Assembly: GCA_018266075.1 (NCBI GenBank)
Contig: JAFEBB010000062.1
Span: 1 to 42,970 of the forward strand
Length of the DNA: 42,970 nucleotides
Direction of reading: 5' to 3'
Source of the DNA: Deltaproteobacteria bacterium
GTDB taxonomy: Bacteria > Myxococcota > Myxococcia > Myxococcales > SZAS-1
Part shown: positions 16,346-25,789 of the stretch, piece after piece
Numbering within the stretch: the first letter of the stretch is position 1
Layout: every line of letters begins with the position of its first letter
Translations under genes and position numbers: made by a program
Notes under the pieces: model-generated
Databases searched by the model: none
What the model was told of the DNA's origin: nothing
What the model saw: the letters and a program-made list of their open reading frames with translations, nothing else

Positions 16346-16714
16346 TCATGGAAACAAGGCCACGACGGCCGCCAGCACCAAGCCAAACGCGACCGCCTCG
16401 AGGTGCACCTTGCGCGCCTGACGCCTTACGGTGGCCAGGGTCTCGGCTTCCGCGATGCTCTCGGGCCCACCGTCCATGTCGCGCAGACCGCGCGAGGCGA
16501 GGTTCACTCAGGTGTGTTCTCTGGCCTGGAAGATGCCGACGCCGGCCATCCACAGCGGCAGGAACACCGGCAGCCGCCAGAGCCAGTGGACGTGCGTCGC
16601 CACCAGCGGCACCGCGACGGCGACGCCCAGCCCGAGCGCGATGAGCCCGAAGCGCATGCGCTTGGCGCGCTCGCGCGGGCCGATGTTGGCGATGCAGACG
16701 GCGCCCTCTTCCAT
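16346..16714 (-). CDS. Candidate selenoprotein: small three-segment membrane protein with in-frame UGA (Sec69)
   Basis: From the ATG at 16714 the frame runs 68 codons to a TGA at 16510-16508 and then continues without a break for 53 more codons to a TGA at 16348-16346. The first part (MEEGAVCIANIGPRERAKRM, then membrane segments at about 22-43 and 48-63) ends FQAREHT. After the TGA it reads VNLASRGLRDMDGG, then VRRQARKVHLEAV and a third membrane segment up to ALFP. Exactly 18 nt after the TGA begins a GGUCU loop closed by a perfect 6-bp stem, like the SECIS of E. coli fdhF. I infer Sec at residue 69, giving a 122-residue protein. Alternatives are a nonsense mutation of a Cys codon, or a separate small gene starting at the GTG directly after the TGA. 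It lies 24 nt downstream of the GerW gene in the same direction. Confidence 0.6.
16479..16495 (-). promoter_or_regulatory. SECIS-like hairpin following in-frame UGA
   Basis: In the transcript, UCGCGC-GGUCU-GCGCGA forms a perfect 6-bp stem with a 5-nt loop. The loop starts 18 nt after the UGA at 16510-16508. As I recall it, E. coli fdhF also has 18 nt between its Sec UGA and GGUCUGC, where the loop G and U contact SelB. The bulged U of the E. coli stem is not seen here. Confidence 0.55.
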
Positions 16715-16738: not shown

Positions 16739-17107
16739 TCAGTGCGTCCCGGTGAGCATCGACGTCAGCACGCCCATGACGCGCCCGATGGCCGAGGCGC
16801 CTTCGGTGGCGAAGGGCTTGCCCTTGGCGTCGATGTGAATGGGCGTGAAGACGACCTCGGTGCCGCTCTCGTGGATGAAACCCACCGGTTTCACATCGAT
16901 CCCGCCGCCACCGCCGCCGCCGAGGAAGCGCGCGAGCTTCCCGGCGCCCGGCATTCCCGAGCCGGCAGCCGCGGCCGCGAAGTTCACGGCGGCCACCGGG
17001 ATCACGGTGTGGCTCTCCAGCTTCACCGGCTGGGCGAAGATGGTCTTCGCGTTGCCTTCCTTCTCCAGCGTGGTCGCCACCTGCTTCATCATCTCGTCGA
17101 TGGACAT
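16739..17107 (-). CDS. GerW/YtfJ family protein
   Basis: A 122-residue protein of the GerW (YtfJ) family, known from Bacillus spore germination but widespread in non-spore-formers. It shows an N-terminal MSIDEMMKQVATTLEKEGNAKT helix region, then AQPVKLESHTVIPVAAVNF, a Gly-rich stretch containing GGGGGGG (about 66-75), and VKPVGFIHE...VVFTPIH. It has no signal peptide. The ATG at 17107 is fixed by AAGGAGG 6 nt upstream, the best ribosome binding site in the region. The candidate selenoprotein gene starts 24 nt after its stop, so they are likely co-transcribed. The biochemical role of the family is not settled. Confidence 0.88.
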   Translation of the reverse strand: MSIDEMMKQVATTLEKEGNAKTIFAQPVKLESHTVIPVAAVNFAAAAAGSGMPGAGKLARFLGGGGGGGIDVKPVGFIHESGTEVVFTPIHIDAKGKPFATEGASAIGRVMGVLTSMLTGTH

Positions 17108-18863: not shown

Positions 18864-19733
18864 TCAGCGGAAGACGTGAGTGCCAGCGCGCGCCACCGCC
18901 TCCGGGGGGACCTCCACGCCCAGGGCGCGCGCGGTGTTCAGGTTGAGCGAGAGGTCGCCGGGAGCGTACACCGGCGGGGGCGCGGGCACCCGTTTCTCGG
19001 CGGGCTTGGCCAACAGCTCCGCGGCCAGCTTGCCGGCGCGGTCGCCGGTGTCGGCGTAGTTCGGGCTCACCGAGGCCAGCGCGCCCGCCTGGGTGAAGCT
19101 CTCCAGAAAGCCCACCAGCGGCAGCCGCCGCTCGCTGGCCATGCCGAGCAGGTACGCCGAGAGCTCGCGCGAGTAGAGCTTGGGATCGGGCGGGAGCCAG
19201 AGCGCATCGAGCCCGGAGGCCATGCCCTCCACGGCGTCGCGCGCCTGGGCGCCGCCGAGCACGGCCTTCAGCACCAGCTGCAGGCCGGCGTTGTCGGCGG
19301 CCTTGCGCGCCCGGTCGACCCAGAGCGCGCTCGCCGCGGGGTCATAGACGACGCCCACCTTGTGAGCTTGAGGCAGCACCTCGCGGAGATCCGTGAGGGC
19401 CGCGCTCGGGTCCGCCTCGAGGGGCACGCCGGTGATCGTTCCCGAGAGATCGTTCTGGGTCACGCCCAGCACCATGCAGAAGACGATGGTGGCGTTGCCC
19501 GCGTGCTCGCGCGCGGCGGTGAGGGCCCTGCGACCCACCGCCACGACCACCGGTGCGCCCTGAAGCTTGGCCTCGAGGTCGGGCGCCGACGGCTCGACCT
19601 CCACGGCGTTGGAGAGGTGCGACTCGGCCGCCTTGGCCGCGACCCTGAACTGCTCCACCTTGCTCTCGACCACCACCACCGGCGGCGCCGCAGCTGCCAC
19701 CGCAGAGATGAGGCCCAGCGACATCACCAGCAC
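18864..19733 (-). CDS. ABC-type substrate-binding protein (PF04392/TrpX-like), copy 1
   Basis: A 289-residue periplasmic binding protein of the ABC_sub_bind (COG2984) type. Features are a hydrophobic signal of the LVMSLGLISAVAAAA type, PVVVAVGRRAL, FCMVLGVTQNDLSGTITGVP, KVGVVYDPAAS, ALWLPPDPKLY and a late VPPEAVARAGTHVFR. I chose the GTG at 19733 because GGGAGG lies 6 nt before it. No ABC permease or ATPase gene is nearby; binding proteins of this family often sit beside TonB receptors and sensory proteins instead. It is a tandem paralogue of the next gene, with the same motifs in the same order. It probably forms an operon with the chemoreceptor gene 9 nt downstream. Confidence 0.87.
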   Translation of the reverse strand: MLVMSLGLISAVAAAAPPVVVVESKVEQFRVAAKAAESHLSNAVEVEPSAPDLEAKLQGAPVVVAVGRRALTAAREHAGNATIVFCMVLGVTQNDLSGTITGVPLEADPSAALTDLREVLPQAHKVGVVYDPAASALWVDRARKAADNAGLQLVLKAVLGGAQARDAVEGMASGLDALWLPPDPKLYSRELSAYLLGMASERRLPLVGFLESFTQAGALASVSPNYADTGDRAGKLAAELLAKPAEKRVPAPPPVYAPGDLSLNLNTARALGVEVPPEAVARAGTHVFR

Positions 19734-19882: not shown

Positions 19883-20749
19883 TCACCGATAGACGCGACT
19901 GCCGGCGTGGCTCACGGCGTCTGGCGGGACATCGATGCCGAGGGCATTCGCCGACTTGAGGTTCAGCGAGAGCTCACCGGGCGCGTACAAGGGCGGAGGC
20001 ACCGGGATGCGCTTGTCCTCGGGCAGCGCGGCGATGCCGGCGGCCACCTGGCCCGCGCGATCGCCCACGTCGGCGAAGCTGGCGCTCACCGCGGCCAGGG
20101 CGCCCTGGGCGGTGTGGCTCTCCACGAAGCTCACCAGCGGGACCTTGTTCTCGGCGGCCTCGCTGAGGACGTAGGTCGCCAGCTCCTCGGTGAAGAGCTT
20201 GGGATCGGGCGGGAGCCAGAGCACGTCGACCTTGTGGACCATGGCGTCGAAGGCATCGCGGGCCTCGGTGCCCTTGCTCACCGGCGCGAGGACCAGGGTG
20301 ATGCCCTTGGCCGCTGCGGCCGCGCGCGCGTGCTCGAGGTAGAGCCCCGACGCGTGGGGATCGAAGATCAGCCCCACGTGCTTCGCGTGCGGCAGCACGG
20401 TGAGGATCTGGTTGAGCACGGCAGCGGGATCGGCCTCGAGGGGCACGCCGGTCACGGTGCCCGAGAGATCCATGCGCGAGACGCCGAGCACCATGCAGAA
20501 GATCACTGGCTTCGCCGAGACGTGCTCGCGCGCCGCCTTGAGCGACTTGCGACCCACGGCGACCACGACCGAGGCGTCCTTGAGCTTGTCGGCGAGCGCG
20601 GGATCCGCAGGATCGACCTCTTGCGCGCCGGGTAGACGGCGCTCGGCGGCCTCGGCCGCGGCGCGAAACGGTGCCACGTCGTGCTCGAGCACGACCACCG
20701 GAGCCGCCGCGATGAGCGCGCGCAAGGCCAACACCACCGCCCCGCCCAT
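19883..20749 (-). CDS. ABC-type substrate-binding protein (PF04392/TrpX-like), copy 2
   Basis: A 288-residue paralogue of the downstream binding protein. The shared motifs VVVAVGRKSLKAAREH, FCMVLGVSRMDLSGTVTGVP, HVGLIFDPHASGLY, VLWLPPDPKLF and VPPDAVSHAGSRVYR occur in the same order. The signal is MGGAVVLALRALIAAAP. GGAGGGGG 8 nt upstream supports the ATG at 20749. It is divergent from the TonB receptor gene, sharing a ~180-bp intergenic region, so joint control is likely. A role as ligand-capturing partner of the receptor or chemoreceptor is inferred from context; the ligand is unknown. Confidence 0.87.
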   Translation of the reverse strand: MGGAVVLALRALIAAAPVVVLEHDVAPFRAAAEAAERRLPGAQEVDPADPALADKLKDASVVVAVGRKSLKAAREHVSAKPVIFCMVLGVSRMDLSGTVTGVPLEADPAAVLNQILTVLPHAKHVGLIFDPHASGLYLEHARAAAAAKGITLVLAPVSKGTEARDAFDAMVHKVDVLWLPPDPKLFTEELATYVLSEAAENKVPLVSFVESHTAQGALAAVSASFADVGDRAGQVAAGIAALPEDKRIPVPPPLYAPGELSLNLKSANALGIDVPPDAVSHAGSRVYR

Positions 20750-23461: not shown

Positions 23462-25789
23462 CTACGGCTCGCGCGACTGCAAGAGCCCGCTGGGCTGCTC
23501 TCCCACACTCGGCGCCACGCTGATCACCACGGACTTGCTCGCCGGCGTATTGCTCCGCGCCGCGGTGTGATCGAGCGGCACGAGCACGTTGGCCTCGGGA
23601 AAGTACGTGGCCGCACAACGCTTGGGGATGTTGTACGGCACGACCACGAAGCGCTTCGCCACGCGCGCTTCGCCCTGGAAGTGGCTGGTGAGGTCGACGA
23701 CCTGGCCCGCGTGCAGTCCGAGCGCGTCGATGTCGGCGGCGTTCAGGAACACGACGCGGCGGCCGTGACGAATGCCTCGGTAGCGATCATCGAGGCCGTA
23801 GATCGTCGTATTGTACTGATCGTGGCTTCGCACGGTCATCATCAAGAGCTGACCGGGCTCGAGCTTCAGCGCGGGCAGCGGGTGCACCGTGAAGCGCGCC
23901 TTGCCGATGTCGGTCTTGAACACGCCCTCGCGCGCGGCGTTCGGCAAGTAGAAGCCGCCGGCCTGACGCACCCGCGCGTTGTACCGCTCGAAGCCCGGGA
24001 TCACCTGCTCGATCAAGTCGCGGATGCGATCGTAGTCGTGGGTGAGCGCGCGCCAGTCCACGCGCGAGCGCGAACCGAGCGTGACCTGCGCGAGCGACGC
24101 GACGATGTCCACCTCGCTCTTGAGCGCCTCCGACGCCGGCGGCACGGCGCCGCGGCTCGCGTGCACCACGCCCATCGAGTTCTCCACGCTCACGAACTGC
24201 GGGCCGCCCTGCTGCACGTCGATCTCGGTTCGTCCGCGGCAGGGCAGGATGAGCGCGGTCTCGCCGTGCACCAGGTGCGCGCGGTTGAGCTTGGTCGAGA
24301 CGTGCGCGGTGAGCGTGCAGCGCCGCAGCGCGGTCGCGGTGAGCTCGGTGTCCGGCGTGGCCGAGAGGAAGTTGCCGCCGAGCGCGAAGAAGACTTTCAG
24401 ATTGCCGTCGCGCATCGCGCGGATGGTGTCGACGGTGTCGTGGCCGTGCTTCCGCGGCGGCTCGAACTGGAACACGCGCGCGAGGGCGTCGAGGAACTCG
24501 GGCTTGGGCCGCTCCCAGATGCCCATCGTGCGATCGCCCTGCACGTTCGAGTGCCCGCGCACCGGACACGCGCCCGCGCCCGGCTTTCCGACGCTGCCAC
24601 GCAGCAGGAGTAAGTTAACAATTTCTTGAATATTGCCGACGGCGTTCGCGTGCTGGGTCAACCCCATCGCCCAGCAGAAGATGATGCGCTCGCTCGTCCG
24701 AAGCAGCTCCGCGACCGGCTGCAGCTCCGCGCGGGTGATGCCCGAGAGCTCCTCCAGCTCGGCGTCGACGCGCGACATCACGTTGGCGCGATACGCCTCG
24801 AAGCCGTCGGTCCGCGCGTCGACGAACGCGCGATCAATCGCGTTCGCCTCGAGCAGCATCTTCCCCAGGAGCTGCAAGAGCGGCACGTCGCCGTTCACGC
24901 GAACCTGGAGCCAGTGGTGCGCCAGCGCCGTCCCCGGCCCGAGCAGCTTGAGCACCTCTTGCGGATGCTTGAAGCGGTTCAGCCCCGCCTCGGGAAGCGG
25001 GTTGATCGACACCAGCTTCGCTCCCGCGCGCGCGGCATCCTGCAGCGCGGTGAGCATGCGCGGGTGGTTCGTCCCCGGGTTCTGCCCGATGACGACGATC
25101 ACCTGCGCCTTGGGGAAGTCGTCGAGCTTCACCGTCCCCTTGCCGATGCCCAGCGTCTCCGAGAGCGCCGTGCCGCTCGACTCGTGGCACATGTTCGAGC
25201 AATCCGGGAGGTTGTTGGTCCCGAACTGGCGAACGAAGAGTTGATACAGGAAGGCCGCTTCGTTGCTGGTGCGGCCCGAGGTGTAGAACGCGGCCTCGTC
25301 GGGCGAGCCGAGCGCATTCAGCTCGCGGGCCACGAGCGCGAACGCCTCGTCCCACGAGATCGGCGCGTAGTGCGTGGCGCCTGGCCGAAGCACCAGCGGC
25401 TCCACCAGTCGCCCTTGCTGCCCGAGCCAGTGATCGCTCTGCTCGGCGAGGTCCTTCACGCTGTGCGCCGCGAAGAACGCAGCGCCGATGGTGTGCGCCG
25501 TCGCTTCTTCCGCGAGCGCCTTGGCGCCGTTCTCGCAGAACTCGGCCATCGACCGCTTGCCGTCGGGATCCGGCCAGGCACAGCCCGGACAGTCGAAGCC
25601 GTCGTGCTGGTTCATCTTCAGCAAGAGCCGCGCGCCGCGCACCGGACCGGGCGCCGCGAGCGCGAACTTCATCGAGCTGGCGATGGCCGGAATCCCGCCG
25701 GCGACGGTCGGAACCTTCGACACCGACACCGGCTCCGGCGCCTCGGGTGGCTGGGCGCGCGGAAGCTCGGTGTCGGGCGGACGTCGCAT
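23462..25789 (-). CDS. Molybdopterin oxidoreductase alpha subunit, FdhF/YdeP-like
   Basis: A 775-residue molybdenum enzyme of the FdhF/YdeP group. It has an N-terminal DCPGCAWPDPDG, then AFYTSGRTSNEAAFLYQLFVRQ, the active-site-region Cys201 in SNMCHESSG, VVIGQNPGTNHPRM, the GKPGAGACPVRGHSNVQGDRTMG segment, and a C-terminal cofactor domain with TVRSHDQYNTTIYG. Related YdeP proteins have an unclear reaction and are linked to acid resistance, so I do not call it formate dehydrogenase. No electron-transfer subunit is nearby. It starts 3 nt after the stop of the M16 peptidase gene. A very AT-rich codon run lies at 24611-24634. Confidence 0.88.
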   Translation of the reverse strand: MRRPPDTELPRAQPPEAPEPVSVSKVPTVAGGIPAIASSMKFALAAPGPVRGARLLLKMNQHDGFDCPGCAWPDPDGKRSMAEFCENGAKALAEEATAHTIGAAFFAAHSVKDLAEQSDHWLGQQGRLVEPLVLRPGATHYAPISWDEAFALVARELNALGSPDEAAFYTSGRTSNEAAFLYQLFVRQFGTNNLPDCSNMCHESSGTALSETLGIGKGTVKLDDFPKAQVIVVIGQNPGTNHPRMLTALQDAARAGAKLVSINPLPEAGLNRFKHPQEVLKLLGPGTALAHHWLQVRVNGDVPLLQLLGKMLLEANAIDRAFVDARTDGFEAYRANVMSRVDAELEELSGITRAELQPVAELLRTSERIIFCWAMGLTQHANAVGNIQEIVNLLLLRGSVGKPGAGACPVRGHSNVQGDRTMGIWERPKPEFLDALARVFQFEPPRKHGHDTVDTIRAMRDGNLKVFFALGGNFLSATPDTELTATALRRCTLTAHVSTKLNRAHLVHGETALILPCRGRTEIDVQQGGPQFVSVENSMGVVHASRGAVPPASEALKSEVDIVASLAQVTLGSRSRVDWRALTHDYDRIRDLIEQVIPGFERYNARVRQAGGFYLPNAAREGVFKTDIGKARFTVHPLPALKLEPGQLLMMTVRSHDQYNTTIYGLDDRYRGIRHGRRVVFLNAADIDALGLHAGQVVDLTSHFQGEARVAKRFVVVPYNIPKRCAATYFPEANVLVPLDHTAARSNTPASKSVVISVAPSVGEQPSGLLQSREP

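Follow-up and report, generated by a model that had tools for sequence, protein, structure and literature searches.

An in-frame UGA in a myxobacterium-like genome points to a new family of three-helix membrane selenoproteins

Formate dehydrogenase H (fdhF) is decoded by SelB with the aid of an in-frame SECIS, a hairpin that in fdhF has a bulged U. Bacterial SECIS (bSECIS) elements are described by a set of constraints (PMC13188914): a loop of 3–9 nt, a stem of 4–16 bp, a G in the first two loop positions, a UGA-to-loop distance of 16–37 nt and an MFE of at most -7.5 kcal/mol. The selenoprotein families listed in the same 2026 review include polytopic membrane proteins with Sec, namely YeeE/YedE (PF04143), the mercuric transport protein (PF02411) and the SO_0444 family transporter (NF033936), and a groundwater-metagenome study cited there reports unnamed selenoprotein candidates. 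A further point of reference is the transmembrane domain of E. coli YgaP, in which SCN- binding elicits a response at Cys159, located where helix 2 ends (PMC4730233).

The window, by which we mean the whole stretch of DNA analysed here, comprises 42,970 nt of a Deltaproteobacteria bacterium (Myxococcales; SZAS-1; assembly GCA_018266075.1, contig JAFEBB010000062.1, positions 1 to 42,970). The features discussed below are:

16346..16714, minus strand: putative gene for a 122-aa selenoprotein containing Sec69; the coordinates include the stop codon
16508..16510, minus strand: in-frame UGA, read as Sec69; TGA in the same column of four homologues and Cys in ten
16479..16495, minus strand: SECIS-type hairpin, stem UCGCGC/GCGCGA, loop GGUCU, the loop lying 18 nt after the UGA
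16595..16678, minus strand: residues 13-40, predicted as transmembrane helix 1 and including its basic start (AlphaFold2 helix 13-39; hydropathy)
16517..16585, minus strand: residues 44-66, predicted as transmembrane helix 2, in which Pro53 and Gln63 are invariant (AlphaFold2, hydropathy, alignment)
16355..16447, minus strand: helix 90-120 after the UGA, a basic amphipathic start followed by predicted transmembrane helix 3 (AlphaFold2, hydropathy)
16739..17107, minus strand: GerW/YtfJ-like protein gene (PF09579, 30.8 bits), upstream of the selenoprotein gene and in the same direction

The minus-strand frame from 16714 to 16346 is open over 122 codons with the TGA at 16510-16508 as its sole interruption, after which 53 more codons lead to the terminal TGA at 16348-16346; the frame that the initial annotation had described, starting at ATG 16714, thus held. 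This ATG is the only ATG, GTG or TTG start before the UGA that closely follows the preceding in-frame stop. Standard gene calling returns only a 68-residue ORF. UGA serves as an ordinary stop at the end of both the selenoprotein gene and the preceding gene. The GerW/YtfJ-like gene and the selenoprotein gene are possibly co-transcribed; gene-context comparison found no neighbours shared across the family, the GerW/YtfJ-like gene included, and a DoxX-like gene lies downstream only in two loci of a single genus (L093 and L094). The GerW/YtfJ family is named for sporulation, and here, in a genome that is myxobacterium-like, a member precedes the selenoprotein gene by 24 nt. Elsewhere in the window, two adjacent and similar ABC-type substrate-binding-like proteins (18864-19733 and 19883-20749, minus strand) form an apparent tandem duplication adjoined by a TonB-receptor-like gene.

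The reading of this UGA as Sec rests first on the homologues. Of 145 genomes of the order that were searched, 12 contain relatives, the window's own genome counted. Four homologues from other genomes (L003-L006), 42-49% identical to the window protein, carry a single internal TGA in exactly the same column, within the motif FQAxxxT-U-xxLASRGxRDxD, while six (L002 and L007-L011) have TGC at this column and four more distant members (L050, L051, L052 and L054) also have Cys. Only five columns are invariant in the 15-sequence alignment of the five TGA genes and ten Cys homologues: Asn10, Arg19, Pro53, Gln63 and Cys/Sec69. Both Sec and Cys members have the third helix downstream of the UGA position, and the five TGA genes span five genomes and three genera. 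Since the column holds either TGA or Cys and the continuation is conserved, the classical Sec/Cys pair criterion is satisfied. Cys7 is near-invariant in close members and is missing in L004, L051 and L052; the L004 protein contains its Sec but not a single Cys. Comparison of dN/dS upstream and downstream of the UGA gave only weak evidence, the sequences being too divergent to decide, and the tree leaves a single origin of Sec unresolved. A plasmid search by tblastn found no homologue, and a single-sequence search of genome contigs found one, although this single-query scan leaves the reach beyond the phylum largely uncovered.

The second line of evidence is the hairpin. It meets every bSECIS constraint given above, with a 5-nt loop, 6 bp and a folding energy of -10.0 kcal/mol for the 19-nt hairpin, which folds better than shuffled sequences (z -2.66); a 48-nt segment does not (z 0.32). 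The initial annotation had proposed the hairpin UCGCGC-GGUCU-GCGCGA 18 nt after the UGA and suggested folding and scoring it. The hairpin held and scored in favour, with the correction that 18 nt is the distance from UGA to loop, the stem beginning after 12 nt. The bulged U of fdhF is absent. Considered alone the hairpin is not beyond chance: a comparable one follows 19 of the 871 TGA triplets in the window (2.2%), and 3 of the 110 that have an open frame both before and after them, although GGTC[T/A] at +18 with 6 bp occurs in the window only at TGA 16510-16508. The TGA, the downstream frame and the hairpin recur together in four other genomes, and the combination is therefore far beyond chance. 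All five TGA genes have TCGCGCGGTC[T/A]GCGCGA at equal spacing, with one loop base varying, and the same hairpin is found in a truncated sixth gene (L104, in G124) whose contig ends just after the expected UGA. The hairpin was not found in the Cys homologues, the Cys gene L002 having only a degenerate version. All hairpin genes encode the loop Gly by GGT, which accounts for only 3-10% of Gly codons in those genomes where a count was possible. Synonymous invariance in hairpin codons relative to the rest shows only a marginal excess (Fisher p 0.04), in part owing to the small number of fully conserved codons. Part of the stem encodes a semi-conserved RGxR motif. No compensatory base-pair changes were seen, the stem being invariant among the TGA genes. 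An Rfam scan around the gene gave one chance match only.

The window's genome also encodes the machinery that such decoding requires, with selA (558 bits), selB (300 bits), selD (384.8 bits) and one tRNA-Sec (selC, 71.8 bits, anticodon tca) all above cut-off. It further contains a SelW-like (Rdx, PF10262) selenoprotein (L108, C19:86756-86959) with a CTSU motif (ITYCTSUGY) and its own 7-bp SECIS-like hairpin, and TGA forms of this SelW-like gene are found in three related genomes. Machinery and another client are thus present. Genomes with Cys versions of the new protein mostly carry Sec machinery too, so its presence does not discriminate between them and the choice of Sec or Cys is made gene by gene. 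In the same genome SelD has Cys (GAGCACKI), and so does the best match to formate dehydrogenase (ARVCHAP). As separate observations, an FdhF-like molybdopterin oxidoreductase in the window (23462-25789, minus strand) carries Cys (NMCHESSG) at a site that is frequently Sec in formate dehydrogenases; in G123 the SelD match (L061) has an in-frame TGA and is probably a Sec form, in contrast to the Cys form in the window's genome; and two formate-dehydrogenase-like matches in G123 (C131:6716-7489 and C91:15800-16540), with one in-frame TGA each, are likely selenoproteins.

Several lines of evidence thus indicate that this is very likely a functional selenoprotein gene in which UGA codon 69 specifies Sec. 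The Sec/Cys column, the SECIS and the machinery come from comparative sequence; read-through in vivo is inferred, and no expression or protein data bear on it. The initial annotation had placed Sec69 in a 122-residue protein, expected Cys in homologues and called for a check for selA, selB, selC and selD in the same genome. All of this is supported: homologues have Cys (TGC) or TGA aligned and continue past the UGA, all four genes were found, and every proposed check that could be run came out in favour. None of the outcomes it named as refuting (homologues ending at the UGA, absence of selB/selC, or a TGA that is an error for TGC) holds. In the mechanism we propose, the ribosome would reach the UGA at codon 69, and SelB with Sec-tRNA-Sec, bound to the downstream hairpin with its GGU-containing loop, would insert selenocysteine. 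Translation of the remaining 53 codons would then yield an inner-membrane protein of 122 residues and three transmembrane helices, in which Sec69 would occupy, on the predicted cytosolic membrane face, the place of the invariant Cys in other homologues.

The structure is predicted with confidence on both sides of the UGA. AlphaFold2, given the 15-row alignment with Cys substituted for Sec, produced a full-length model (mean pLDDT 91.7, pTM 0.81) with helices at 13-39, 44-66, 70-74 and 90-120 and short strands at 77-79 and 84-86, and hydropathy indicates three membrane segments. Sec69 directly follows helix 2 in the motif GxFQAxxxTU. Basic stretches precede helices 1 and 3 and follow helix 2. 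The positive-inside rule links basic stretches to the cytosolic side, and from these we infer an N-in, C-out topology with Sec69 on the cytosolic face. A PDB sequence search returned a sole, unrelated match (E 1.1), Foldseek against PDB and viral models returned nothing at E <= 0.001, and the best VIA-align structural comparison (Z 6.3) is ordinary for helical bundles and identifies no convincing solved relative.

We consider it very likely that this three-helix membrane protein, with Sec just after helix 2, represents a new selenoprotein family, although an earlier unnamed sighting cannot be excluded. No model in Pfam and NCBIfam scans reaches cut-off and no sensible family recurs among relatives; NCBIfam selenoprotein models (for example DG NF049953, GOS_B NF041374 and GOS_C NF045500) are unmatched among the 15 members at E up to 1. 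No entry among the 119 families of PMC13188914 corresponds to it; the initial annotation likewise knew of no described selenoprotein of this type. In the literature searched, no paper treats DUF2892 together with selenocysteine. The decoding mechanism is already known; the novelty lies in the protein family as a selenoprotein.

Function is purely inferred, without a conserved gene neighbourhood or a convincing solved structural relative to guide it. One proposal, which we put forward tentatively and with the balance leaning slightly against it, is that a reaction at the membrane surface relies on Sec69 as its only redox-active nucleophile. Sec69 would reduce a peroxide, disulfide or persulfide, and a cellular thiol, or Cys7 in members that have it, would then resolve it. 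L004 lacks any Cys besides its Sec and L051 and L052 lack Cys7, and therefore not all members can depend on an internal partner thiol. The simplest model would be a lone Sec that acts as nucleophile and is resolved by a cellular thiol, though we hold this inference with less than even confidence. A Cys7-Sec69 selenenylsulfide was considered as a general mechanism and dropped, since Cys7 is missing in the same three members. A bolder reading, also held with less than even confidence, would make the protein the founding member of a small membrane enzyme class with one Sec and no obligatory partner Cys, in which Sec works at the cytosolic membrane surface beside the invariant helix 2 Gln and Pro, perhaps as a membrane peroxidase, a persulfide reductase or a selenium relay.

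The alternative that survives best concerns function only and leaves the selenoprotein reading intact. The protein may be a real selenoprotein that is not a redox enzyme, possibly a YgaP-TM/DUF2892-like membrane helper in which Sec69 would bind or relay sulfane sulfur, selenium, thiocyanate or a metal at the membrane. In its favour, the sequence ahead of helix 1, N-[IV]-G-x3-R-x2-R, is similar to that of PF11127, this model matches 5 of 11 members (best E 0.03), profile-profile comparison gives a weak match in register (E 0.0032, HH probability only 10%), and in YgaP the SCN--responsive Cys159 stands at the end of helix 2. Against it, the PF11127 score of 14.8 bits is below the gathering cut-off of 25.3, the GxCPxY cysteine of PF11127 is missing and the new family has a third helix. 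Distant kinship to YgaP-like_TM (DUF2892) is suggested but not shown.

Of the rivals to the selenoprotein reading itself, the first takes the UGA as a genuine stop, giving a 68-residue two-helix product with a decaying remnant downstream. Standard gene calling does output that ORF, but the open frame and third helix are kept in five TGA genes from three genera, the UGA falls exactly on the invariant Cys and the hairpin is conserved, which makes this very unlikely. Read-through as another amino acid, by general leakiness or a reassigned code, is similarly improbable: an in-frame UGA with a conserved continuation fits any read-through, yet Cys is without exception the residue aligned with it, the hairpin conforms to a SECIS, the genome has full Sec machinery and another selenoprotein, and UGA is a stop elsewhere. 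An error in sequencing or assembly that turned TGC into TGA is all but excluded, for although the window's genome is a draft of 166 contigs, TGA stands at the same column in the independent assemblies G123, G132, G134 and G137.

With the selenoprotein reading preferred, several consequences follow. Each new selenoprotein family flags a redox-active residue otherwise missed by sequence searches, and a likely active site is now assigned to a family of unknown function. The known myxobacterial selenoproteome is widened by a compact three-helix membrane protein without a thioredoxin fold or established relative, of which gene calling would leave a 68-residue stub. Natural Sec/Cys pairs are available for testing selenium's contribution in a membrane setting.

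Compared with described systems, the locus resembles fdhF in its UGA, its directly downstream hairpin and the spacing of its GGU-type loop, and it shares with SelB-decoded selenoproteins selABCD in the genome and Cys homologues. It differs from known members of that group as a new protein without a thioredoxin fold, CxxU or UxxC motif. Like the polytopic Sec proteins PF04143, PF02411 and NF033936 it is a membrane protein, but Pfam and NCBIfam scans show no sequence match to these and their Sec motifs differ. With YgaP-like_TM (DUF2892, PF11127) it has in common an N-x-G-x3-R-x2-R start, two short helices and a Cys just after helix 2, whereas its spacing is different, it has an extra third helix and it lacks the GxCPxY Cys.
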